Below are positions 4,072 to 34,253 of a DNA stretch of 34,253 bases, piece by piece. This DNA is from a virus. Each line of letters starts with the position of its first letter. Within the stretch, counting starts at the first letter, position 1. The notes under the pieces are model-generated. The model saw only the letters and a list, made by a program, of their open reading frames with translations. It did no database searches and was not told the DNA's origin. Location: the IMG/VR virus record IMGVR_UViG_3300008267_000487, positions 1-34,253 of that record; one strand, given 5' to 3'. Both the position numbers and the translations under genes were made by a program.

Positions 4072-4797
4072 ATGAGAAGATTTAAAGATATTTTATCGTT
4101 AATTCGGGAATCTGAAGAAATTCCAAGAGAACCTTCATATAGTGAAAGAGAGCCTTTAGTTCCTGATTATGGTCATCCACGCCCACGACTTTATTCTTTG
4201 CCCAAAAATAAAAATTTAGGATTAGAACTTAGAAGATTATACAGAGAAACAGGAACAAGTCTTGACACAAAAGATGTGGATGTTCGTGCAACTCTTGCTC
4301 ATAAAGTGTTAGATGATCATTTTACTGATTTAATGGGAAGACTTCCAAAAGGACTAGTATTACCATCACCAGCAAGCAGAAAATTAGTGGTAAAAAGAGT
4401 ATTTGAACACGAATATCTTCTACACGATCCAGAAAAAGAAAGTAAAAAATTACCTTGGAAAAGAAAAGATGTTAGCGACAAATCTGTATTCAGAGGTCGC
4501 AGATTAACTATTGAATTCGAACCATTTGCAAAACCAGTACCAGGAGATGCACTTCACACTGTTAGAGAATTAAAACCAGGACTGAAAGAATTAACCAATA
4601 TTACTGGTCATGACTGGACATCAACACCACCATGGCACGAAATTCAAAGAATTCGGAGAAGACAAAGATCCGAATATTCTCCACTCCCCTATGGTACTAG
4701 TAGAAATCCACTTCGGTTAACCATTCATATACCACATCCAGATATTGATAAGCAATGGCATAGGTACTTAGATTCGGAGGATGAAGAAGGATTATAA
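4072..4797 (+). CDS. Putative internal head protein with leader
   Basis: 241 residues. It begins MRRFKDILSLIRE followed by SEE, a capsid-targeting-like leader ending in I-R-E, which fits the [LI]-x-E rule of T4-type prohead proteases. The rest is basic, Pro-rich and soluble, with no motif I recognise. There is no Shine-Dalgarno site; the gene follows a late promoter by five bases. It is first in a run of head-to-tail genes (4072-8632), several with the same kind of leader. Likely packed in the head; the molecular role is unknown. Confidence 0.75.
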   Translation: MRRFKDILSLIRESEEIPREPSYSEREPLVPDYGHPRPRLYSLPKNKNLGLELRRLYRETGTSLDTKDVDVRATLAHKVLDDHFTDLMGRLPKGLVLPSPASRKLVVKRVFEHEYLLHDPEKESKKLPWKRKDVSDKSVFRGRRLTIEFEPFAKPVPGDALHTVRELKPGLKELTNITGHDWTSTPPWHEIQRIRRRQRSEYSPLPYGTSRNPLRLTIHIPHPDIDKQWHRYLDSEDEEGL

Positions 4798-4798
4798 T

Positions 4799-4957
4799 AT
4801 GAAAGACTTTAAAGAAATCTTATCTGAAACTATTCGTAAATCTGGAGATGAGTATACAATACTCAGTAAAAAAGGTAAGAAACTTGGAAAGTATAAAAGC
4901 AAAGAAGCAGCATTAAAGAGATTAAGACAAATAGAATGGTTTAAGAGGCACAAATGA
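4799..4957 (+). CDS. 52-residue basic protein with leader
   Basis: A short frame reading MKDFKEILSE then TIRKSGDEYT. The first ten residues are an almost ideal capsid-targeting leader (L-S-E). The remaining 42 residues are very basic: a kGKkLGkYkSkeaAlkRLrqIe pattern that I have seen as a small module in marine phage virion proteins. After leader removal this would be a DNA-binding-sized basic peptide, comparable in idea to the T4 internal proteins. It overlaps the next gene by four bases (ATGA) and sits one base after the previous stop codon, so all three are translationally coupled. Confidence 0.8.
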   Translation: MKDFKEILSETIRKSGDEYTILSKKGKKLGKYKSKEAALKRLRQIEWFKRHK

Positions 4958-5574: not shown

Positions 5575-6423
5575 ATGAAAACATTTAAAGTATATCTTGA
5601 AGAAAGTCGTAAAGCAGCAATCGCAGCATTAGCACTTACTGGAGCGGCGATGGCAGCACCACCAAAACCAGAAGCAACAGAATATATTGTTGACTATATG
5701 AAACAAAAAGAAGGTTTCAGACCTGTTGCCGAACCCGATAAAGACGCAAAGGGAAACCCAGTTGTTGTTGGTTATGGAACAACTCATGTTTATCCAGATA
5801 CAAAGAAACCAATCAAAGTTGGCGAAAAAATAACTCCAGAAAAAGGTGAAGAGTTAATCAAGGCATCCATCGAAAAAGATATCACTCCAAAAATGGAAAA
5901 AATTCCGAATTGGGATGAAATGGATCCAGGTAAACAAGCAGCATTATTAAGTTTTGGATATAACGTAGGTCATAATTTTTATGGAGCCAAGGGATATGAA
6001 ACAATCACTCAAAATTTAAAAAATAAAGAGTGGGATAAAGTACCAGAAACTTTAAAGATGTATAATAAAGGTGGTGGTAAAGTTCTTCGTGGTCTTACAA
6101 CTCGTAGAGAACAAGAAGGAAAAATGTGGTCTGAGGGATTACCAACACAAACATCAAAACCAGCATCAACACCAAAAGTAGAAGCACCAAAACCGATAAC
6201 AACACCAAAAGTGGAAACGCCAAAGCAACAAGCAACAACACAAAAACCAATTACTCAACCACAAAAAACAGAAACAACAGATTCATATGAAGTAAAGTCT
6301 GGTGATAATTTAAGTAAAATTGCCAAGCAATATGGAAAAACAGTACAAGACATTGTTAAATTAAACCCAGAAATCAAAGACCCAAATAAGATACAACCAG
6401 GTCAAAAGATAAAGACTAAATAA
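5575..6423 (+). CDS. GH24-type lysozyme with LysM domain and head leader
   Basis: 282 residues from the ATG at 5575; the frame extends upstream but only from here does the leader MKTFKVYLEE appear. Residues 14-28 form a hydrophobic Ala-rich stretch ending AMAA, like a signal peptide. Residues about 35-200 resemble T4-type lysozyme (GH24): catalytic Glu in KEGF (E46), a V-x-Y-G-T strand near residue 66, and the conserved AALLSFGYNVG helix. A Pro/Thr/Lys-rich linker follows, then a LysM peptidoglycan-binding domain (SYEVKSGDNLSKIA to the end). It cleaves the glycan strand between MurNAc and GlcNAc. It could be the lytic endolysin or a virion-carried enzyme used at entry; the leader favours the latter, the signal-like stretch the former. 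Confidence 0.85.
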   Translation: MKTFKVYLEESRKAAIAALALTGAAMAAPPKPEATEYIVDYMKQKEGFRPVAEPDKDAKGNPVVVGYGTTHVYPDTKKPIKVGEKITPEKGEELIKASIEKDITPKMEKIPNWDEMDPGKQAALLSFGYNVGHNFYGAKGYETITQNLKNKEWDKVPETLKMYNKGGGKVLRGLTTRREQEGKMWSEGLPTQTSKPASTPKVEAPKPITTPKVETPKQQATTQKPITQPQKTETTDSYEVKSGDNLSKIAKQYGKTVQDIVKLNPEIKDPNKIQPGQKIKTK

Positions 6424-6427
6424 TAGT

Positions 6428-6988
6428 ATGTACCGTGAAGTATTTCAATCATTAAACGAATCAATAAAGAAAAGAAACACTCCAGACAGTTTCATTCTTG
6501 GTGTTGGTAATAATTCTAAAGAAGTAATTCATCGTGGATATATCAAAGATGCTTCATTCCCATTAAAGTATGATTTCATGCCAGATGGTAAAGGACATTC
6601 CAATTCAGGAACTCATGTTTATTCTTTTAAAGATGGTAATAGAAGTGGTGTTGTGGAAATATCTCATCGTTATAGACCAAATCTATCTGGTCATGAAACA
6701 TTAAGTACAGTTTCATTTGAGATGAATCAAGGTAATTCGCCAGAAGATATAGAAGTACATAGAATGATAATGCCAGCACTTCGCCATCACTTAAAGTCTC
6801 ATGGACCTGACATCATTAATTTTGGAGATGGAGTTCCATATGTGGACAGTTTGATTCGTAGAATGGGTTCTGATTTTGAGACATTTGAAACCAAAGGTAA
6901 AAAAATAATAAAAAGAAAAATTGATCCGAAGGTTAAAAGAATCGTATCTCACATTAAGAAAAAAATAAATAATAAAAAGGAGATGTAA
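6428..6988 (+). CDS. Putative internal head protein with leader
   Basis: 186 residues starting MYREVFQSLNE then SIKKR, a slightly longer leader ending in L-N-E. The body is soluble; the last 30 residues are strongly basic (KRKIDPKVKRIVSHIKKK). No recognisable family; a weak resemblance to acetyltransferase-like folds is not strong enough to call. The gene lies four bases after the lysozyme stop codon. Upstream, TAAATA followed by five bases and the ATG echoes the late-promoter/start spacing seen elsewhere, though only six of eight octamer bases match. Confidence 0.7.
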   Translation: MYREVFQSLNESIKKRNTPDSFILGVGNNSKEVIHRGYIKDASFPLKYDFMPDGKGHSNSGTHVYSFKDGNRSGVVEISHRYRPNLSGHETLSTVSFEMNQGNSPEDIEVHRMIMPALRHHLKSHGPDIINFGDGVPYVDSLIRRMGSDFETFETKGKKIIKRKIDPKVKRIVSHIKKKINNKKEM

Positions 6989-6989
6989 T

Positions 6990-7280
6990 ATGCCATATGT
7001 AACATACGGTGGTTCAAACGCATCTAAAAATGCGATTGAATTGGCGCAAAGAGAAATGGAAGTAAATAGATCTGGAAGAAAAACATTTGTAGATCCAGGA
7101 ACGAGAATCAGTGCATCTGGAAATAACAGAAGAGCAACAGAAAGAAGTGTTCGTGGATTTGTAGAAGGAACTTCCGCCATCTCTAAGGGAATGGCAAGTG
7201 CCTCAAATAGATCAAGAGATCTTAGAAGACAAAGTGCAGTGTCCAGTATGGAAAGATATAATAGAATTAGCAGAATGTGA
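6990..7280 (+). CDS. Small basic hypothetical protein
   Basis: 96 residues starting MPYVTYGGSNASKN. Rich in Arg, Ser and Asn (RSRDLRRQS, ERYNRISRM), soluble and probably helical, without the head leader. A Shine-Dalgarno site (AAAGGAG) lies seven bases before the ATG. It sits between leader-tagged genes and an FmdB-like zinc-ribbon gene in the same transcript. The composition suits a nucleic-acid or virion-binding protein, but no family was recognised. Confidence 0.65.
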   Translation: MPYVTYGGSNASKNAIELAQREMEVNRSGRKTFVDPGTRISASGNNRRATERSVRGFVEGTSAISKGMASASNRSRDLRRQSAVSSMERYNRISRM

Positions 7281-9678: not shown

Positions 9679-9979
9679 GCAGACTGTTGGGTTTTCTGTC
9701 GATGATATTATAAGAGAATTAGAAAAAAGAGAAAAAGCAAAATTACCTGATTTTGCTAAATCGGGAGATTTGCTTCTTAGAAAAGAACTAGAATTTAAAG
9801 TTGATGATCCCTCTAAATACGCAAAAACTTCTTTTAAACCAGCACACGAATATGGTGAAAGAATGAGAGAAGTTGGTAGAAAGTTTAGAGCAAATCAGTT
9901 TTTCTTAGTTCCACCAGAAATTGCAACAGATTTTCCAAATGTTACAAAAGGTAGATTCCCATATAGAACAGAAAGATAA
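9677..9979 (+). CDS. Frame-shifted continuation of the Q/P/M-rich protein
   Basis: The frame encodes about 100 natural-looking residues (from EQTVGFSVDDIIRELEKRE to PYRTER) but has no early ATG or GTG; the first usual start is a TTG at 9770. It is in the +1 frame relative to the 8632-9678 gene and joins it without a stop codon through the A12 run. Either one A is surplus in the assembly, or the ribosome slips, or the gene has decayed. The predicted helix DDIIRELEKREKAKLP and the basic tail do not match a family I know. Treat as the C-terminal part of the upstream protein until checked. Confidence 0.55.
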   Translation, partial: EQTVGFSVDDIIRELEKREKAKLPDFAKSGDLLLRKELEFKVDDPSKYAKTSFKPAHEYGERMREVGRKFRANQFFLVPPEIATDFPNVTKGRFPYRTER

Positions 9980-9982
9980 TAC

Positions 9983-10010
9983 TTGACAAAAATTTAAAAC
10001 ATGATATAAT
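9983..10010 (+). promoter_or_regulatory. Sigma70-like promoter, leaderless geometry
   Basis: TTGACA (9983-9988), 16 bases, TATAAT (10005-10010). Normal -10 spacing puts the first transcribed base near 10017, at the G of an in-frame GTG. It drives the nuclease pair at 10011-11058 and is unlike the TATAAATA late promoters around it. Confidence 0.8.
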
Positions 10011-10676
10011 ATGTTCGTGATTGGAAATTTTACACATAATCTTTTTGACCTTCCTAAAAATTCTATCGAAATGAAGGAAGTAAATGGTCTTCGTGCTTAT
10101 TCTACACCAGATGGAATTTTTCCATCAGTGACTACGGTTGTTGGTTGGGAGAAGCAGAAGAAATACGCTGATTGGAGAGATAAAAATAAGAAAGAGTCCC
10201 AACGAGTTTGTGATCGTGGGACTCTTTTACATTCAAAGGTTGAATCCTACCTATTAAATGAAGATGTACAATTAAATGATGAAGACAATTTATTTAATCT
10301 GCTCAAAAAGGAAGTAGATCATATTAATAATATTAATGCAATCGAACAACCTTTGTGGGGGAAAATAACGGGTCTTGCCGGAAGAGTCGATTGTGTTGCT
10401 GAATATAAAAAGGAACCATCAATTATTGATTTTAAAGCAAGCACATACCCTAAAAAGAAATCAGATATTGAAAATTACTTTTGTCAGGCAGCGGCATATT
10501 CATTACTTTGGCAAGAAAGAACTGGAGAACAAATTCCCAATATTGTAATTTTAATTGCAAATGAGCAGGGGTTTTGTCAGGTTTATAAAGAAAAAGTGAT
10601 CAATTTCATTGAACCCTTAAAGAAATACATTGATACATATAAAAAAGAGGTAAATTTTGATGGCATTATCTTTTAA
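10011..10676 (+). CDS. RecB/Cas4-like PD-(D/E)xK nuclease
   Basis: 221 residues from the ATG at 10011. The promoter makes the GTG at 10017 (M-I-G-N-F-T-H-N) at least as likely a start, since the ATG itself abuts the -10 box. Motifs of the RecB-like nuclease superfamily are in order: a helix with LLHSKVE near 75, GRVD (D127), IIDFKAS (D140, K142) and QAAAY (Q159). These metal-dependent enzymes degrade or resect DNA. In T4-like marine phages, proteins with the FTHNLFDLP opening are annotated as exonucleases, as far as I recall. It has its own early-type promoter, overlaps the next gene by 17 bases and shares its terminator. Confidence 0.8.
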   Translation: MFVIGNFTHNLFDLPKNSIEMKEVNGLRAYSTPDGIFPSVTTVVGWEKQKKYADWRDKNKKESQRVCDRGTLLHSKVESYLLNEDVQLNDEDNLFNLLKKEVDHINNINAIEQPLWGKITGLAGRVDCVAEYKKEPSIIDFKASTYPKKKSDIENYFCQAAAYSLLWQERTGEQIPNIVILIANEQGFCQVYKEKVINFIEPLKKYIDTYKKEVNFDGIIF

Positions 10677-11058
10677 TGATGTAAACAGAAGAGGTTCTTT
10701 CACTTGGGTAAAATGCAACGATGATGCAAAGTCTGCTTATTTTAGAAGTTCATTCGTTGCAAAACATGGTGGAGAATTTATCAAACTTGGAAGATACTGG
10801 GAATGGAATCCGTCAAAGGAACAAATTATATTTCTAGAACCAGTTATTTCTAAACCAGCAAATAAAGAAGTTAAGGTTAATGAAGACGAAAGACTTTGGA
10901 TATTTTTATCCCCGGATGGAAAAGAAATAAAGACGAATAATATTCATGAATTTTGCAAAGAATATAATTTGACTAGATCAAGTTTATATGAGGTAATGTC
11001 TGGTAAAAGAAAATCACATAAAGGGTTTTCGTTTATAGAAACAAAAAATAAAAACTGA
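10660..11058 (+). CDS. Small protein with NUMOD/HTH-like C-terminal module
   Basis: 132 residues from the ATG at 10660, with a Shine-Dalgarno site (AGAGG) in the end of the nuclease gene. The C-terminal half (about residues 75-128: an FLSPDGKEI start, then EFCKEYNLTRSSLYEVMSGK and KGFSF) resembles the helix-turn-helix module attached to phage homing endonucleases, which reads specific DNA. The catalytic part of such an endonuclease is absent. The N-terminal half is basic and aromatic-rich and unrecognised. Possibly a repurposed DNA-binding domain acting with the adjacent nuclease; that partnership is inferred from the shared transcript. Confidence 0.65.
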   Translation: MALSFNDVNRRGSFTWVKCNDDAKSAYFRSSFVAKHGGEFIKLGRYWEWNPSKEQIIFLEPVISKPANKEVKVNEDERLWIFLSPDGKEIKTNNIHEFCKEYNLTRSSLYEVMSGKRKSHKGFSFIETKNKN

Positions 11059-21519: not shown

Positions 21520-22998
21520 TTAAGATTTTTCAACACTATTATAACATCCATACGCCTTCACGCCATCATTTTCATATCCACCTTCGATTGGTTTCCATTT
21601 TGATTTTGGACCTGTTTGCTTCATTGCTTCAATAGTTGACCAATGAAGATCACAATCGCGTAGAATTACATCTTCCATGTTTCTTTGCTCCCAACCTGGT
21701 TCTGTTTCGCCACCAAAGAAAAACTTCTGATATGGAAGTTTGTGATTTATAAGAAGAACATGTAGACATTTATTCTTTATTTGTGAATATGGAGGTCCAC
21801 CAGTGTTAGTTGAACTTGTTGATGATTTTGGTTCGTGTAGAATAGTATTGTTTATGAATGCTGTATTAGCAAGATAGCATTGTCTATCTGTTTCTGGATT
21901 AAATTCTGGTGTTGGTTTCGCTACAACTGGTCGGCAGAAAATACCCTGAACAGACTTAACATTAGTAGCAAACACTCCATACATGATAACATTTTCTTTT
22001 ACTTCCCACATTTGATAAATGTCTGAGTGTTTAGTGGTAAGATATCCAGCAAAATTATCAATAGAGCAGTTGAAGATACCATTTGCCATTACAAAAGCAT
22101 CACCCCAAATATTTTTAAGGGTTGAGTTTCGTGCCATAGGCGTTCCATTAAATCCAGTAGTATTATTGCTTAGATGACAATCTGTGAAGAAATGTTCTCC
22201 ACCTATCTTTCTAAACACAGCAGAGTCTTTACCGCTTTCGCATATTGGAATACTTGGATCTGGTGGACCTTGCTTTACCACACCATCATTGAACCATGCT
22301 TCGTTTGATGGATTTAGGAACTTACAATTATCCCACCAATGATCTGTTCCGGCAATATAACCTATTCTTCCCATATCAAGAGTAATATTCACCCATCTTA
22401 TTGGAAACTTTGAAGAGAATGTTTGGTAGCCAGGAGTTACAAAAATTGTATTTCCATTACCCTTTACAGTTATCCACTTGCTAGTTCCAGTTGCTGGTTT
22501 CTTTGTTCTTGGATAAACAAGTTCAAACTCACCGTTTCCAAACTGAATAGTGTCACCAGGAATAGCGGTAAGTATTGCCTTTTCAAAGGTTCTGAATGGT
22601 GTTGTGATGCCATCATTGGAATCACTACCATCTAGAGATACTTTATATACTCTTGAAACAGATTCCTTTTCTAATGTAAGGCAGTGTATTCCTGTTTCTG
22701 AAACAGAAATATCCTCAGCATATGAAGCGGGATTTGGATATGATATATCCTTAACAGAATAAGGACGATCAAATGACAATTCTGATCCATCATTTGCAAT
22801 GACCTTAGCAGTCACCGTAATAGATTCACCATCTTGTAAGGTATTGAAATCAAAATCAAAAGAATATTCTTCGATCTTTGTTTTCTGATTAAATCTACTT
22901 TCAGTCACAGTTATCGCAGCAGTTCCACTCCAATTTGGATTTGAAAGAAGAAGTGATAAATCAGCGGAATCTACGATTCCATCTTTATTCTCGCCCAT
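21520..22998 (-). CDS. Beta-helix tailspike-like protein with dockerin-like loop (5' end disrupted)
   Basis: 492 residues from the ATG at 22998. Near the start, ENKDGIVDSADLSLLL is a calcium-loop/dockerin-like motif. Residues about 20-110 look like an Ig-like beta domain. From about 118, YKVSLDGSDSNDG with TPFRTFEKAI and GDTIQFGNGEF is the usual entry into a right-handed parallel beta-helix (pectate-lyase-like), the fold of many tailspikes that bind or cut polysaccharide. This ATG has no Shine-Dalgarno site. A perfect AAGGAG sits at 23031-23036 before another ATG (23024; MPEIKPIARW) in a different frame that stops soon after. One added base at about 22993/22994 would join them and complete the loop as D-E-N-K-D-G. 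Likely a frameshift or sequence error. Confidence 0.7.
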   Translation of the reverse strand: MGENKDGIVDSADLSLLLSNPNWSGTAAITVTESRFNQKTKIEEYSFDFDFNTLQDGESITVTAKVIANDGSELSFDRPYSVKDISYPNPASYAEDISVSETGIHCLTLEKESVSRVYKVSLDGSDSNDGITTPFRTFEKAILTAIPGDTIQFGNGEFELVYPRTKKPATGTSKWITVKGNGNTIFVTPGYQTFSSKFPIRWVNITLDMGRIGYIAGTDHWWDNCKFLNPSNEAWFNDGVVKQGPPDPSIPICESGKDSAVFRKIGGEHFFTDCHLSNNTTGFNGTPMARNSTLKNIWGDAFVMANGIFNCSIDNFAGYLTTKHSDIYQMWEVKENVIMYGVFATNVKSVQGIFCRPVVAKPTPEFNPETDRQCYLANTAFINNTILHEPKSSTSSTNTGGPPYSQIKNKCLHVLLINHKLPYQKFFFGGETEPGWEQRNMEDVILRDCDLHWSTIEAMKQTGPKSKWKPIEGGYENDGVKAYGCYNSVEKS

Positions 22999-27273: not shown

Positions 27274-28634
27274 TAAAATTTCCAATCATCCGTTTTTGGT
27301 TTCTTTTCACTACTTGGTTTAGGTGTAAGTGATATTGCGTTTACTTCTTCCTTCTTAATATCAAACACCTTCATCTTGGCACGATTGATTCCAAGAATAA
27401 ACTTTCGATTTACCGCAGTATCATTATAACGATTCTTCAATTGCTTGACCATGATCTGATTCATCTCAGCAAGTTCTTCGGTTGAGATAAGAGCAAACAT
27501 AAAGTCAGCAGTTGCGGGAAGACCGAAAGATTCAGAAGTATCTTCAAGACCAACATCTGAATTTGAATAACCAGAACGAGTTGTTTGTGTAGCACTGAAG
27601 ATCGGCACATTATATTCTACTGCCAAACCTCGTAGTTCTTCTGCGATAGATTTGATGTATGTGTATGAATTGATATTGTTACCATTCTTCAATCTTGCCG
27701 AAGCGCAAATGTTCAGATAATCAATAAAGATAACATCTGGTTTAAATTTACGCTTTAACCAAAGTTCATCTAACAAGAATCTAAAGTGATTCACATTTGC
27801 TGTAGCAGTTGGATATTCTTTGATGATAAGTTTACCAGTTACACCAGCACTTAGATTTTGAATTTTCTTTTCATAAATTGTCTTTGGTAAATCTTTTAGA
27901 CTGTCAAGTGTTACATCAAGAAGATTTGCGTCAATTCTTTCGGCAATTCTTTCTTCTGCCATCTCACATGTAATATACAATACATTCTGATTTTGCTTCA
28001 AACAATTCGCAGCATGATGACATAGAAATAGCGATTTACCAACACCTGTTCCTGCCATGACAATATTCAAAGTCTTAGCAGGAGTTCCACCATTAGTAAT
28101 CTGGTTAAACATTTCAAGATCGAACGGTATCTTCTTTTCTATGGTATGATAAAAATCATATCGTGATTCATAATCTTCAATATAATCGTGACCGATATGA
28201 GCATCAAAAGAGACTGCTAATGCCTTTGAAAGTATATCAGGTATCGAACCTTGAGATTGCTGAGACTTACCATCAATAATCTGAATCGATTCCATGATGG
28301 CGTTGTAAACTGCTTTCTCTTTACAAAATGTTTCTGTCTCGTTGAACAACCATTCAATGTCACATGATTCTTTATTATGTGATATTTCTTCAATGATGTG
28401 TGAGACACGCTTTAGTTCCTCTTGAGTGATTGATTTATTTTTATCAAGAATAATATACAACGCTTCCTTTGTTGGAAGATTGTTATACTTTTGAATAAAC
28501 TCATGAATTGTTTCAAAAACAAATCTGATAGAACGATCATGAAAATACTCCCTCTTGAGGAAGGGAGTAACTTTTCGTGAATATGTTTCGTTTCTTAAAA
28601 GATTGTGTAGTATAAGTTTTTCAACATCGGTCAT
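27273..28634 (-). CDS. Replicative DNA helicase (T4 gp41/DnaB-type)
   Basis: 453 residues. An N-terminal helical domain (1-110) is followed by a RecA-like motor: Walker A AGTGVGKS (194-201), a conserved [14 protein letters not shown] helix, Walker B DVIFIDY (300-306), then [10 protein letters not shown] and the [23 protein letters not shown] section typical of DnaB motif 4. It forms a hexamer that unwinds DNA ahead of the polymerase. Start ATGA overlaps uvsX. The C-terminal tail is Lys/Pro-rich. Order uvsX-helicase-primase agrees with a compact T4-like replication cluster. Confidence 0.92.
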
Positions 28635-29674
28635 TCTTCATCCTTAGTTGATGTTTCTCCACCATAACTGAACTTATTATACACTGCCTTGTCGATCTGG
28701 TCAAGAATATCCTTAGTAAAATACTTTTCAGGATTATCGTAGATTGTCTTCTCAAATACTTTTGATCCATCAGGAAGTTCAATACGAGTTGAATTTTTCT
28801 TGAAGATTCCTGCTTCTACAGCAATATCAACAAGACCATAATATGGATCAATACCTGTATCATAATTCAAACGAATATCTACCATGCTATTTTCTTTGGT
28901 AAATCTACCTTTATAAAGTTTAGCATGAATAATATTACCCACTACTTGACCATCTGAATTCTTATCCTTTTTCTTTGAAAGATAGACAATCGTTGATGCT
29001 GCGTATTTCAAACCAGTACCACCACCCATCTCAGACATTGGAACATATGCTCCAACAACTTGATAAGTGTGGTTTGTCATAATCATTGGAATCTTTGCGA
29101 CACCCAACTTAACGGTAAGAACACGGAAGGTTGACTTCACGATCTGTGCGCGAGTCATATCGCGTGTTTCTTTACCTTCAGCAGTATCATTCATCTCCTT
29201 GGAGGTTGACAACATACCAAGAGAATCAAGAACAATCATTGTTGGTTTACGACTATCTTGTGGAAGTTCAAGAACCTTATCAACAATTGTAATTGCCTGA
29301 TGACGAAACTCTTCAATTGTAGAAACAGGAAAGACAGCAATTCTCTTTGGGTCGATACCACGACTCTTGAACATCTCGGAAGTCACTGCTTGTTCTGAAT
29401 CAAAATAAAGAACTACTGCTTCTGGATTGTCGTTCAAGAACTTAGAAACAATTCCTAAAGTAAAGTATGTCTTACCAGTTGATGACTCACCAGCAAGTGC
29501 GAGAATTTTGTTGTTCGGAAGACCAGAATAAATACTGGCACTCAGAAGTCCATTGAAAAGGTAACAACCCGTATCAACAAACCCCGCAACATCGGAACCA
29601 TCTAAACCATCAGATACAAGGGAAGCATACTTATTTCCCGAAGATTTAACCATTGACGATAAAAAGTCACTCAT
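28631..29674 (-). CDS. uvsX: RecA-like recombinase (UvsX)
   Basis: 347 residues from the ATG at 29674, chosen because GAAAGGA precedes it and MSDFLSSM follows. The frame continues upstream only into the polymerase 3' end. Walker A is GESSTGKT (62-69), Walker B-like [13 protein letters not shown], with a [10 protein letters not shown] loop and an acidic tail. It coats single-stranded DNA and drives strand exchange for recombination-dependent replication. Ten bases separate it from the polymerase stop codon. Length is close to that of T4 UvsX. Confidence 0.92.
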
Positions 29675-29684
29675 AATATTCCTT

Positions 29685-30800
29685 TCATCCAAATAAACTT
29701 TCAAGTGTATTTTTCTTTTCCGTTGACCATCCTATAGTATCTAGAATTGTAGTCAATGGATCAATAAATGATTTCTCAAATTGAGTTTTATAATCAATAA
29801 ATTCATGTAAACCAAACTCTTTTGGTAAAATGTTTACAAATGAAACAATCTGATCTTCTCCACGCATACCGCCAAGCGGATTTGGTTTCTTCAAATGAAG
29901 ATACTTAATCTTATCACCTTCTATAATCTTTTTGTATTTCTTTGAAATTTTAAAGATGTCAAGGTAGTGATTATAAATCAAAGCACCCTTTACAGCAATG
30001 GGTGTTGACTTTTTGTATATTGTACCACGATCACCATACTTTTCCATTCCATGAACACTACGAGGAAATGCGATTTCTTCTGGAGATAAGGTATAGAATT
30101 CTTTTCTACATTTCTCAACATATTCAATCATTTCCTCTTCAGTTCCGTTCAATGTAATGTTTACTGCGTTCTTGAGATGCTTACGAACATATTCAGGAGT
30201 CGAACTACGAGTTGTTTCGATGCCCATGATCTTGAGTTTTGGTTCGGAGTACCTAACACCTTCCGAATCTAAAACATTCAACATGTATCGTTTTTTGGCA
30301 GTCCATATACCTTTATCAGCAATAACTTCTCTACCCATCTGCATTTTATTTTCATACGCATTCATAATCTCAGCAAGTTCCTTGAACTTCTTCTCTATAA
30401 ATGGAATAATAATTTTTTCAGATGCGTTGTCGAGATAATTTGCTTTCTTTGTCGTTGATTCGTTTGGAACAAACTTATCAACGAGTTCATTGAGATTCAA
30501 ATAAACAGAGTCGGTATCCGATGCGATTACATAATCGACATCAGATGTTCCGACAGTCTTGTTTATAAACTCATTAAGTTTTTTACCAATCCATTGAATA
30601 GCAAGTTGACCAGACAATGTAATTGCTTCTGCTAGTTCAGTAGAATAATACCTGAAGTATTGGTTCCCCACTGCTCCATAAGCAGAATTCAATTGAATTT
30701 TTCTTACAAGTTGAAAGTTATGATATTTTGATATATCATTTTCAAGTTGAGATTTCAACACCAAAAGTTGATCATTTGTTAGTTTAGAAAAATCACTCAT
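29685..30800 (-). CDS. C-terminal (polymerase) half of a split family B DNA polymerase
   Basis: 371 residues from the ATG at 30800; a TTG one codon earlier is less likely. It begins just before motif B ([10 protein letters not shown], 33-42), contains motif C with the two metal-binding Asp residues (ASDTDS, D95 and D97) and runs through the thumb to a C-terminal KNTLESLFG resembling the clamp-binding end of T4 gp43. The 3'-5' exonuclease, the N-terminal domain and motif A (DxxSLYPS) are missing. The adjacent upstream gene is unrelated. A sigma70-like promoter immediately precedes this start codon, so the half is independently expressed. The other half must lie outside the window and pair with this one for activity, as in the split gene 43 of some Aeromonas phages. 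Confidence 0.9.
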
Positions 30801-30807
30801 CAAATAT

Positions 30808-31448: not shown

Positions 31449-31573
31449 TATTTTTTACCATTCGTTTCTTCAAGAATCTTGAGTATATTTTCAAGCATGT
31501 CTACTATGTACCAAATACTACAAAAAACATAGAACATGAAAAAGATAAGAAACCATTCCATGGAATCGCTCAT
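31448..31573 (-). CDS. 41-residue membrane peptide
   Basis: A short frame MSDSMEWFLIFFMFYVF continuing to LEETNGKK. Residues 6-24 form one hydrophobic aromatic-rich transmembrane helix, followed by an amphipathic charged helix (MLENILKILEE). The ATG overlaps the upstream stop codon (ATGA) and its own stop overlaps the next start (TAATG), which strongly supports it as real despite its size. Possible roles include an antiholin, superinfection exclusion or membrane anchoring; none can be chosen. Confidence 0.75.
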   Translation of the reverse strand: MSDSMEWFLIFFMFYVFCSIWYIVDMLENILKILEETNGKK

Positions 31574-31869
31574 CCGATCTTCACACATCCTTTCTCTCTG
31601 ACAAGGTAGTTGAACATCTCTCTTCCTACTGCGCGAGTCATTGTTCGAAATTCACCTCTGCTCAAGGCGATCTGTGGAAACTTCACAATATAGTCATCAT
31701 CTCCATATCCTGGAATGATTGTGATTCCAACCATATTATCATCAACAACATCAGACCAACAGAAATGGACTTCATCAAGGGATGGCAGATGTCTCAGGAC
31801 GCATGACTTCTCCCAATTCAATTCCAACGGAGATGTATCTGGAACGTATGGATCGCCGTAGCGTTTCAT
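31570..31869 (-). CDS. Hypothetical protein
   Basis: 99 residues starting MKRYGDPYVPDTSPLELNW. Mixed alpha/beta in appearance, acidic in the middle (SDVVDDNMVG), ending VREKGCVKIG. Overlaps the PEP-CTERM gene upstream and the membrane peptide gene downstream by four bases each. Unrecognised. Base composition is visibly richer in G+C than the replication block. Confidence 0.65.
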   Translation of the reverse strand: MKRYGDPYVPDTSPLELNWEKSCVLRHLPSLDEVHFCWSDVVDDNMVGITIIPGYGDDDYIVKFPQIALSRGEFRTMTRAVGREMFNYLVREKGCVKIG

Positions 31870-32513
31870 CGCTTCCTCCGAACTCCAATCATACCAGCAA
31901 TTCCAATCAGCGCAAGTGCCGATGGTGCAGGAACGACAACATAATCAATATTGTCGATTGCGATCTGATTTGAAATACCCGTTCCATAGATCTTGATCTC
32001 TGTGATGTTGTTCAGAGGACCAGGGTAGACGCTAGAGATGCTGAGTTTCACTCGCTGTGCCGCAGCGAGTTGTGCTGTATAGGTAAACACTCCCTCTCCA
32101 TATCGGTATCCTTCAATCACCATCGTCATGGGATTCCATACTGCCGTGACCTCCAGGCTATTCAGTCTCCACAACTCGTTTCGGTTGATCCGATAGTTGT
32201 AGAATGAATTCGAACCCCATGTAGTGAAAATGGCACGATCACCAATGATCGCTTCGTCATATCCACCCAATCCTGCTCCACCGACAAGATCGTAATATGC
32301 CCACTTGTTATTAAAGATCGCATATGGACTACTTGATTGCACTGTATGTGAACTAGTGAAATTGAATCCTTCATATGTTCCTAGAGGTTCAGAAACGAAT
32401 CCAGTCGAGGGAGATGAATCTATAAATGTCGGAGCAGGAAGGTTCTCAAAGGTGCAGATCGCACCCTGTGCCGAAGTTGCGAGTAGAGTTGTTGCGATAA
32501 GTGTCTTAGTCAT
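31866..32513 (-). CDS. Secreted protein with PEP-CTERM sorting tail
   Basis: 215 residues with three parts. A signal peptide (MTKTLIATTLLATSAQGA) comes first. Next is a beta-rich extracellular domain (about 18-190; FENLPAP, GTYEGFNFTSS and IDNIDY near its end), like the jelly-roll-type domains of exported surface proteins. The C-terminal signal is VVPAPSALALIGIAGMIGVRRKR: a P-A-P variant of the PEP motif, a hydrophobic helix and an Arg/Lys-rich end, the known PEP-CTERM arrangement read by exosortase. I know of no reason for a phage to encode this except to place a protein on the host surface during infection. It overlaps its neighbours by 8 and 4 bases, so it is embedded in a phage operon. 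Confidence 0.8.
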   Translation of the reverse strand: MTKTLIATTLLATSAQGAICTFENLPAPTFIDSSPSTGFVSEPLGTYEGFNFTSSHTVQSSSPYAIFNNKWAYYDLVGGAGLGGYDEAIIGDRAIFTTWGSNSFYNYRINRNELWRLNSLEVTAVWNPMTMVIEGYRYGEGVFTYTAQLAAAQRVKLSISSVYPGPLNNITEIKIYGTGISNQIAIDNIDYVVVPAPSALALIGIAGMIGVRRKR

Positions 32514-32994
32514 TTCTGTTCTCCCTTAGTTGCCTATTCTCTTCCCGAAGTCGCTCAATGGTTTTAAGATTCTCATCTGAGTGTGCCTTCAGGAACTCAT
32601 TGAAGTCCGTTACCGATGGCGGAAACTTTGCCCACTTTCTTTCATCATTGAAATAGTTCCAACCACGGGAGATGGCATAGTCACCCGCTAGGAATCCTGT
32701 CAGGTGATGAAAGCCACAGACTTCCCATCTTGCTTCATCACGCTCTCTGCGTAGTGCATCAAAAGAACTTGTGAGTGTGGCATTGATATTTTCCTTTGCC
32801 TCGACTTCGTGTTTGATTGCGTCGATTCTTTCCTCAAGTTCACGGCACTTCTGCACCAACAGGTTGTTCTGATACCGTGCATTCTCAAGTAACTCTGTCA
32901 GTCGAAACCTTTCCGACATGGGAGAGTATGGATTCCTGCCACGGAGTCCGTCTAGGTTGTCTCCTGCGAGTAGATCGGGGTCTTCTTCAGGCAT
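32506..32994 (-). CDS. Coiled-coil protein
   Basis: 162 residues. Residues about 28-90 are a long charged heptad region (ELLENARYQNNLLVQKCREL, then ERIDAIKHEVEAKE) ending in FDALRRERDEARWEVC, and the C-terminus is a second coil (TIERLREENRQLRENRND). The middle (GFHHLTGFLAGDYAISRGW) is a short globular part. LxRERDEARxE is shared with the small gene directly upstream, suggesting related proteins. GGAGAA precedes the ATG. Overlaps both neighbours by eight bases. Function unknown. Confidence 0.65.
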   Translation of the reverse strand: MPEEDPDLLAGDNLDGLRGRNPYSPMSERFRLTELLENARYQNNLLVQKCRELEERIDAIKHEVEAKENINATLTSSFDALRRERDEARWEVCGFHHLTGFLAGDYAISRGWNYFNDERKWAKFPPSVTDFNEFLKAHSDENLKTIERLREENRQLRENRND

Positions 32995-33190
32995 CGGTGT
33001 TCTCCTTCAGGTACTCCCATCCACGCTTCTTGTATTCCTCGTCCACATCTTCAGAACGACAGGCTTGATCGATGATCCACGACATTGCCTCTCGCCGTGC
33101 CTCGTCGCGCTCACGGGTCAGTTCCGCACACTTTGCTACGAGAGATTCAACATGGTCGATGAGTTCTTGCTTTGTGGGTTTCTTACTCAT
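32987..33190 (-). CDS. Small coiled-coil protein
   Basis: 67 residues starting MSKKPTKQELIDHVESLVAK. One long charged helix holds ELTRERDEARREAMSW, matching the RERDEAR block of the following gene; a KKRGWEYLKE end parallels SRGWNYFNDE there. Thus it looks like a shortened paralogue of the 162-residue protein. Overlapping starts and stops of eight bases on both sides. Confidence 0.65.
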   Translation of the reverse strand: MSKKPTKQELIDHVESLVAKCAELTRERDEARREAMSWIIDQACRSEDVDEEYKKRGWEYLKENTDA

Positions 33191-33686
33191 ATTGATTTCC
33201 TACGTAAATGGGATTCACATCAACGATGTGTCGCCTGTAGTAATCATTCTCTCCCATCACAGGTTCGCCTTTCCAATCTTCTGCGACCATTGCAATCCCG
33301 TATTCCTTGAAGGTGATGTATTCAATGACGGTTTCGTAGTCAGGTGCGTATATCACTCTACCCACCCAATCGTATCCTACTGGAATTGCTCTTTCAACTC
33401 GTCTTTGGTGTCTCTTACTCCATTGCCGTGCCACCGTCTTTGGAGTGTAGCGAACGATCTTCGGATAAGTCATCATCGTATCATTCGGAGTGGAATAATA
33501 CAGGTCAGACATCGGTTCCATGGGTTCCATGACAAGCATCTCGCGCTTCTGAGGATCATACGGTTCTCGCTTGCCATTCCAAGGACCGCCGTGGTAGACC
33601 ACCATGTGTGGTTCTTCGGAAGAGTTCTTGTTGAGAATATCATTGATGACTTTATCATCTTTGTATGTGGCGGAATAGATGCTCAT
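33183..33686 (-). CDS. Hypothetical protein
   Basis: 167 residues starting MSIYSATYKDDK. Tyr- and Pro-rich with an HMVVYHGGPWNGKRE motif near residue 30 that resembles a small module I have seen in phage and actinobacterial hypothetical proteins (YxGGPxDG), plus a GYDWVGRVIY strand. No enzyme family assigned. Coupled to neighbours by overlaps of four and eight bases. Confidence 0.6.
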   Translation of the reverse strand: MSIYSATYKDDKVINDILNKNSSEEPHMVVYHGGPWNGKREPYDPQKREMLVMEPMEPMSDLYYSTPNDTMMTYPKIVRYTPKTVARQWSKRHQRRVERAIPVGYDWVGRVIYAPDYETVIEYITFKEYGIAMVAEDWKGEPVMGENDYYRRHIVDVNPIYVGNQYE

Positions 33687-33913
33687 TCCTTCTTCACCAT
33701 GTCGAAGAGTCTACGGGCAATGTACACCATGTCCGCAAAGTCATCGCCGTAGTTTGGATACTCATCTGTTCCCTCAACTCGTTTGTCCTCCGCTGCAAGT
33801 TCCTCTTCATGGAACTTGATCGTCTTCTCCATGTCTTGCAGAGACATGATGTGATCGGAGGAACCGCATGTGAGGTTTTTGAAGTAGTCTAGTGGATTTT
33901 CTTCGTTTGTCAT
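33683..33913 (-). CDS. Hypothetical acidic helical protein directly after tRNA-Leu
   Basis: 76 residues from the ATG at 33913 (MTNEENPLDYFKNL). The frame extends upstream but only through the tRNA-Leu gene, so the longer version is rejected. Acidic, helical (MEKTIKFHEEELAAEDKRVEG) with no known motif. There is no Shine-Dalgarno site: the ATG lies two bases beyond the tRNA discriminator base, so 3' processing of the tRNA would leave an almost leaderless message. Confidence 0.6.
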   Translation of the reverse strand: MTNEENPLDYFKNLTCGSSDHIMSLQDMEKTIKFHEEELAAEDKRVEGTDEYPNYGDDFADMVYIARRLFDMVKKE

Positions 33914-33915
33914 AA

Positions 33916-33998
33916 TGGGATTGGTGGGACTTGAACCCACAAGGTCTACTGACCGACAGATTTTAAGTCTGTTGCGTATGCCATTCCGCCACAATCCC
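33916..33998 (-). tRNA. tRNA-Leu(UAA)
   Basis: Acceptor stem GGGATTG/CAATCCC with discriminator A, a T arm containing GGTTCAAGTCC, an anticodon loop CTTAAAA between ACAGA and TCTGT giving anticodon TAA, and a long variable arm as expected for leucine. CCA is not encoded. It reads UUA, a codon favoured by the AT-rich genes in this window. Confidence 0.95.
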
Positions 33999-34001
33999 GA
34001 A

Positions 34002-34072
34002 CTACCCCGCCTAGATTTGAACTAGGAAAAAGAGATCCAAAGTCTCCTGTGATACCGTTTCACCACGGGGTA
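34002..34072 (-). tRNA. tRNA-Gln(UUG)
   Basis: Acceptor TACCCCG/CGGGGTA with discriminator G, D arm TGGTGAAACGGTATCA, anticodon loop CTTTGGA (anticodon TTG), and T arm CTAGTTCAAATCTAG. It reads CAA, which dominates Gln codons in the Gln-rich virion genes. It starts on the base after the methyltransferase stop codon; CCA is not encoded. Confidence 0.95.
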
Positions 34073-34253
34073 TTAAAACACATTACTTGCGAGTGCGTAC
34101 ATTGCGATACCACTCGCCGTTCCTACATTCAGACTCCTGACAGTTCCATATTGCTTAATATACAATCTGTGGTCACAGATGTCAAGGATTTCTGTTGGAA
34201 GACCGACTTGTTCTTGACCAAATGCTAGAACATAATGTGTATTTGTATTCCAT
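34073..34253 (-). CDS. SpoU/TrmH-family RNA 2'-O-methyltransferase, C-terminal part
   Basis: Partial, cut by the window edge; about 59 residues visible. VLAFGQEQVGLP is motif 1 (FGxExxGL), LDICDHRLYIKQYGTVRSLNVGTASGIAMY contains motifs 2 and 3 of the SPOUT/SpoU knot (IPxxGxxxSLNV). These bind S-adenosylmethionine and methylate a ribose 2'-OH in tRNA or rRNA. The gene ends exactly where tRNA-Gln begins and is followed by tRNA-Leu(UAA). Known family members modify tRNA (TrmH at G18, TrmL at the wobble base of tRNA-Leu), so modification of the adjacent phage tRNAs is an attractive inference. Ala/Val-ending C-terminus is short, without an extension. Confidence 0.85.
   Translation of the reverse strand, partial: WNTNTHYVLAFGQEQVGLPTEILDICDHRLYIKQYGTVRSLNVGTASGIAMYALASNVF

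Follow-up and report, generated by a model that had tools for sequence, protein, structure and literature searches.

Dozens of related phage contigs encode predicted exported proteins with a C-terminal tail resembling a bacterial surface-sorting tail, that of PEP-CTERM proteins. The one examined here is encoded by a 34,253-nucleotide virus contig from IMG/VR, analysed over its whole length (the window). Judging from these sequence features, the phages probably place their proteins on the infected cell by way of the sorting machinery of the host. For the protein of the window, we consider it about an even chance that it is a phage-made surface protein, sorted by a host exosortase-type enzyme, which alters the surface of the infected cell and excludes other phages. 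The known exosortase substrates are surface proteins of bacteria; should phages encode such substrates themselves and exchange them, surface sorting is a step that phages exploit.

A preliminary description of the window had placed a complete export and sorting layout (signal peptide, tail, RRKR) in an operon of overlapping phage genes at 31866-32513. Both the layout and the coordinates hold, with the gene on the minus strand and overlaps of 4 bp (31866-31869) downstream and 8 bp (32506-32513) upstream. The features of the locus are as follows.

31866..32513, minus strand: PEP-CTERM-like exported protein, 215 aa (open reading frame, relatives, GGGAG ribosome-binding site just upstream)
32463..32513, minus strand: predicted signal peptide, residues 1-17, MTKTLIATTLLATSAQG (by eye; relatives of full length keep it)
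31935..32462, minus strand: mature beta-rich core, residues 18-193 (structure model and composition)
31869..31934, minus strand: PEP-CTERM-like tail, residues 194-215, made of VPAP, 14 hydrophobic residues and RRKR (profiles, relatives, shuffling)
31570..31869, minus strand: small gene in a GC-rich island, 4-bp overlap with the tail gene (open reading frame, base composition)
32506..32994, minus strand: coiled-coil small protein directly upstream, 8-bp overlap, with relatives near the gene in other loci (search, comparison of loci)
32987..33913, minus strand: three more overlapping small genes, also in the GC-rich island, with a GC3 of 0.51-0.58 where most of the rest has about 0.2 (open reading frames, composition)
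33916..34072, minus strand: tRNA-Leu(TAA) and tRNA-Gln(TTG), beside the GC-rich island
34073..34252, minus strand: 3' end of a SpoU-type RNA methyltransferase gene, cut by the window end and found at the same place in relatives
29685..30803, minus strand: C-terminal half of a split gp43-like DNA polymerase, flanking the cassette (phrog_262)
28631..29704, minus strand: UvsX-like recombinase, the phage anchor of synteny (named by sequence and position)

The protein begins with MTKTLIATTLLATSAQG followed by AIC and ends in IAIDNIDYVVVPAPSALALIGIAGMIGVRRKR. By eye, the signal peptide is predicted to be cleaved between MTKTLIATTLLATSAQG and the A; in relatives the predicted cleavage falls between AHA and E or between AHG and TG, and the small-x-small character of the site appears conserved. 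The C-terminal tail, VPAPSALALIGIAGMIGVRRKR, consists of P195-A-P197, a hydrophobic stretch of 14 residues (S198-V211; 13-15 residues in the tails of relatives) and RRKR directly before the stop. This layout was found in none of 20,000 residue shuffles of the protein, in only one of the 155 stop-to-stop frames of the window (that of the protein itself) and in none of 1,736 frames of shuffled DNA, and hence it is not due to chance. A lipoprotein was also considered and rejected: by eye, I or L stands before the conserved Cys that follows the signal peptide, and there is no lipobox.

The preliminary description had identified the protein as PEP-CTERM and suggested an HMM search as a check. In that search both models match the window protein just below their cut-offs, Pfam PF07589 at 16.0 bits (cut-off 20.7) and TIGR02595 at 15.9 bits (cut-off 16). 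Two relatives exceed them: L013 reaches 17.7 bits against the TIGR02595 cut-off of 16, and L012/G012 reaches 22.1 bits with PF07589 in the genome search, but 19.2 bits, below the cut-off of 20.7, as a whole protein. The best C-terminal match among PEP-CTERM families is NF038120 (E 2.4e-5; 24 bits, cut-off 80), which aligns with the last 41 residues, including the IDN motif before VPxP, and leaves the remainder of the protein unmatched. With the proteins described by PF07589 and TIGR02595 the window protein has in common an N-terminal signal peptide (by eye), no other membrane segment, a short PxP, a hydrophobic stretch of about 14 residues, a basic cluster at the extreme C-terminus, and a core low in basic residues and high in Ser, Thr and Asn. 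It differs in the near-invariant Pro-Glu-Pro, which is PAP in the window protein. Among 54 distinct phage tails the tripeptide is PAP in 26, PTP in 18, PSP in nine and PNP in one, and glutamate never stands between the prolines. Since no tail has this glutamate and the scores lie just under the cut-offs, the protein is named PEP-CTERM-like. Strict membership of the window protein fails on the tripeptide and is borderline on the profiles; the sequence suggests that the protein works like a PEP-CTERM protein.

It is rather unlikely that the exported protein instead remains uncut, held by its tail in the inner membrane, and acts on the periplasmic side, for example against the entry of DNA from a second phage or on the timing of lysis. 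In favour of this, the tail also has the make-up of a simple membrane anchor with a positive-inside cluster, none of the 54 tails has the glutamate of PEP, and no sorting enzyme was found in the 16 phage contigs tested (see below). However, the hydrophobic stretch is short (13-15 residues) and its PxP keeps a fixed place across unrelated families, which a simple anchor would not require, and the C-terminal HMM matches are to sorting domains.

Relatives of the gene were found in 15 other IMG/VR contigs, most of them at the same T4-like locus. Those holding most of the gene show 62-74% identity, and wherever a relative is full length its signal peptide and tail are intact. The conserved order is dUTPase, MazG-like, gp43 N-half, SpoU, small coiled-coil genes, tail gene, small genes, gp43 C-half, UvsX, gp41 and primase. 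In L003, L005, L006 and L008-L013 the tail gene is followed by the gp43 C-half or by genes next to that half; other genes lie behind the tail gene in L002, L004 and L015, and the contigs of L001 and L014 end just behind it. Because the same gene occupies the same locus in independent contigs, the tail gene is a phage gene, and misassembly or joined host DNA, which the preliminary description had named as a finding that would overturn its reading, is ruled out. The tail gene is under purifying selection (mean dN 0.19, mean dS 0.91, ratio about 0.21 over 36 pairs).

These data also bear on whether the gene is a recent pickup from a host, or part of a misassembled host contig, with no function for the phage. 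Its base composition speaks for such an origin: the gene has a GC of 0.46 and a GC3 of 0.42, whereas the genome has about 0.34 and about 0.2, respectively. Against it stand the shared locus, a dS near 1 with a dN/dS of 0.21, and the absence of cellular relatives in two pattern scans of 84,980 genomes, at the sensitivity of the patterns. Long-term purifying selection rules out neutral capture of a host gene, and a recent host origin as a whole is highly improbable.

The GC-rich island around the gene spans 31570 to about 33913, and relatives of the tail gene are likewise GC-richer than their flanks in AT-rich contigs. Tail-gene identities do not rise and fall with UvsX identities (Spearman -0.23); for the gp43 C-half the two go together (0.69). 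For example, L005 and L009 are 96% identical over the last 68 residues of the tail protein and 65% over UvsX; between the window and L009 the corresponding values are 72% and 90%. With a GC content above that of its flanks and a history uncoupled from the core genes, the tail gene behaves as a cassette exchanged among phages. Its setting in an overlapping phage operon differs from that of most cellular PEP-CTERM genes, which form single-gene operons behind large intergenic regions.

The window contig carries T4-type replication genes in the conserved order: the split gp43 matches phrog_262, the order of UvsX, gp41 and primase is kept, and the best gp43 matches are Synechococcus T4-like phages (53-56%). 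In L013 the two gp43 genes lie at 5757-7238 and 9862-11013; the window holds the C-half, at 29685-30803. In the relatives the halves stand one to several kb apart, with SpoU, tRNAs and the tail-gene cassette among the genes between them. The SpoU-family RNA methyltransferase of this phage group (L013:7261-7800, PF00588, 85 bits) adjoins the polymerase N-half where this is visible. The T4-type late motif TATAAATA, searched as an exact match and covering one promoter type only, occurs six times in the window (761, 828, 4059, 11084, 20438 and 31200; 2.3 expected), mostly just before genes. No exact match was found close upstream of the tail gene in the window or of its relatives in nine loci, which agrees with expression alongside the replication genes.

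The mature core (residues 18-193) has a surface-like composition, with 5.1% K+R and 25.0% S+T+N against 15.3% and 17.9% in other phage proteins. A beta domain had been proposed for it, and the AlphaFold2 model is indeed mostly beta, although weak (mean pLDDT 56.9). The best structural matches of this weak model are carbohydrate-binding modules with Z of about 7-8.5 (pectate lyase CBM 8x8h, CBM4, CBM22, CBM29) and DUF4465, at about 5-17% identity to the window protein; the best Z of 8.5 is near the value for models without a clear match, and at a Z near 8 a match may reflect no more than an arrangement that many folds share. No Pfam CBM matched the window protein. On the basis of the model, the core looks like a beta-sandwich.

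The structural matches also include parts of tail fibres and tailspikes, and these would fit a protein of carbohydrate-binding fold that decorates the virion or resembles a fibre. Such a role is very unlikely, as a signal peptide and a membrane tail make no sense for virion assembly in the cytoplasm, the gene lies among replication genes with no late motif closely upstream, and the window protein has no PHROG match.

In the reading that we prefer, a surface protein sorted by a host enzyme, the processing steps are drawn from established PEP-CTERM knowledge. Sec would export the protein by its signal peptide, and the tail, short, hydrophobic and closed by a basic cluster, would anchor the protein in the inner membrane so that PAP lies on the periplasmic side. 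A host exosortase-type enzyme would then cut at or near PxP, and the beta-sandwich domain would be passed to the outer surface or the exopolysaccharide. Expression probably coincides with that of the replication genes and not with that of the late structural genes, and the altered surface, for example with glycan receptors masked or occupied, would exclude other phages. Processing, enzyme, timing, glycan binding, superinfection exclusion and host group are the parts of this model that we infer. The roles proposed in the preliminary description, a remodelled host surface, blocked superinfection or an effect on release, are plausible. Surface modification or superinfection exclusion appears to be the best functional reading, and an exported, variable, exchanged protein of replication-gene timing fits surface masking or superinfection exclusion. 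In T4, imm and sp are superinfection proteins of the envelope made with the replication genes, and imm adjoins gene 43. The proposed location and timing of the window protein resemble theirs, while imm and sp are not known to have a sorting tail.

No exosortase (EpsH) was found in the 16 phage contigs tested, unlike in the known exosortase system, and sorting would therefore fall to the host. The best-guess host, from the PxP tails and the dockerins, belongs to Planctomycetota (Phycisphaerae). Among Phycisphaerae, tails with PAP and RRRR appear to be frequent. PEP-CTERM proteins are known in Planctomycetes (PMC1569441), and in the freshwater Phycisphaerae family Nemodlikiaceae (CL500-3) cohesin and dockerin modules have been reported and a surface complex, the "planctosome", proposed (PMC6461901). 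The idea in the preliminary description that the protein points to the host type is thus borne out indirectly, short of demonstrating the host. There was no PEP-CTERM match on the Phycisphaera mikurensis plasmid pPSMK1. A psbA-type gene was absent from 33 contigs, most of them fragments, which makes a cyanobacterial host less likely.

The window protein is not the only one of its kind in this phage group. A second exported PxP-tail protein, unrelated to it outside the tail, is encoded directly behind the ribonucleotide reductase gene. Protein search located this second family in 19 contigs and a tail pattern in 43; the family has almost no match to PEP-CTERM models, and its structure model was too poor for a fold comparison (pLDDT 50.3). 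When IMG/VR was searched with a DNA pattern of the tail that left the residue between the two prolines free, 55 stretches were obtained, 52 of them in an open frame of at least 40 residues; 50 of these 52 stand at protein C-termini, 7-9 residues before a stop that follows a basic cluster. The pattern also yielded two further families: the third (L080, L093) is short, and the fourth (L081, L106) is the only one for which distant matches turned up, in bacterial surface proteins. Contig G033 (GC 0.59), which gp23 and gp20 mark as a T4-like phage, contains a distant but full-length relative of the window gene (E 4e-34) beside a gene for a protein of the fourth family. The two PxP-tail proteins lie side by side there (L073:4904-5584, minus strand, and 4189-4845, plus strand), with a third ORF that has a similar end. 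By tblastn of phage and plasmid records, no relatives of the window family in named phages or plasmids and none of the second family were found.

Type I dockerins over the Pfam cut-off occur in 5 of 17 contigs of the group. They bear on a surface change with another end than exclusion, such as holding exopolysaccharide or aggregates, or a surface-polymer toolkit together with the dockerin proteins. The cohesin-dockerin surface complex proposed for Phycisphaerae (PMC6461901) and the link of PEP-CTERM proteins to exopolysaccharide and aggregation (PMC1569441; PMC12642866) favour it. In the window, however, dockerin genes are unlinked to the tail gene, and the host is unproven; we regard this end as rather unlikely. 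A wider proposal, which we hold tentatively and at less than even probability, is that a T4-like lineage on Planctomycetota (Phycisphaerae) carries a toolkit of at least four exported PxP-CTERM families and dockerin proteins (one with GDSGSP), passed between phages as cassettes. These would address the host exosortase-type enzyme and a cohesin-dockerin complex, and so remodel or defend the cell surface.

The exosortase system and PEP-CTERM proteins were described by Haft et al. 2006 (PMC1569441). In the literature searched, phage-encoded PEP-CTERM-type proteins are almost undescribed, apart from one passing remark on hot-spring viral contigs with TIGR03118-family proteins that have a putative exosortase-interaction C-terminus (PMC11003980). 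Those proteins share such an end with the window protein and belong to another family, and the remark comes with no analysis of phage locus, conservation or role. If phages do encode and exchange exosortase substrates, these proteins would offer a way to assay the function of PEP-CTERM-type proteins and would mark phages that infect uncultured Planctomycetota; they would also be candidates for superinfection exclusion beyond the usual model phages.

Some further proteins of the group were observed. Exported dockerin-repeat proteins are encoded at L032:16292-17149, with a signal peptide, and at L057:2320-3072 (minus strand), one of them directly behind the second PxP-CTERM gene. A GDSGSP serine-protease-like motif is combined with a C-terminal type I dockerin over the Pfam cut-off at L131:13129-14196 (minus strand, contig G037; motif by eye) and at L034:5692-6849. 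The window itself encodes a beta-helix-like protein with a weak DUF1565 match at 21520-22998; its relative at L035:1827-3476 has a dockerin-like repeat, of which the window copy keeps a remnant at its start.
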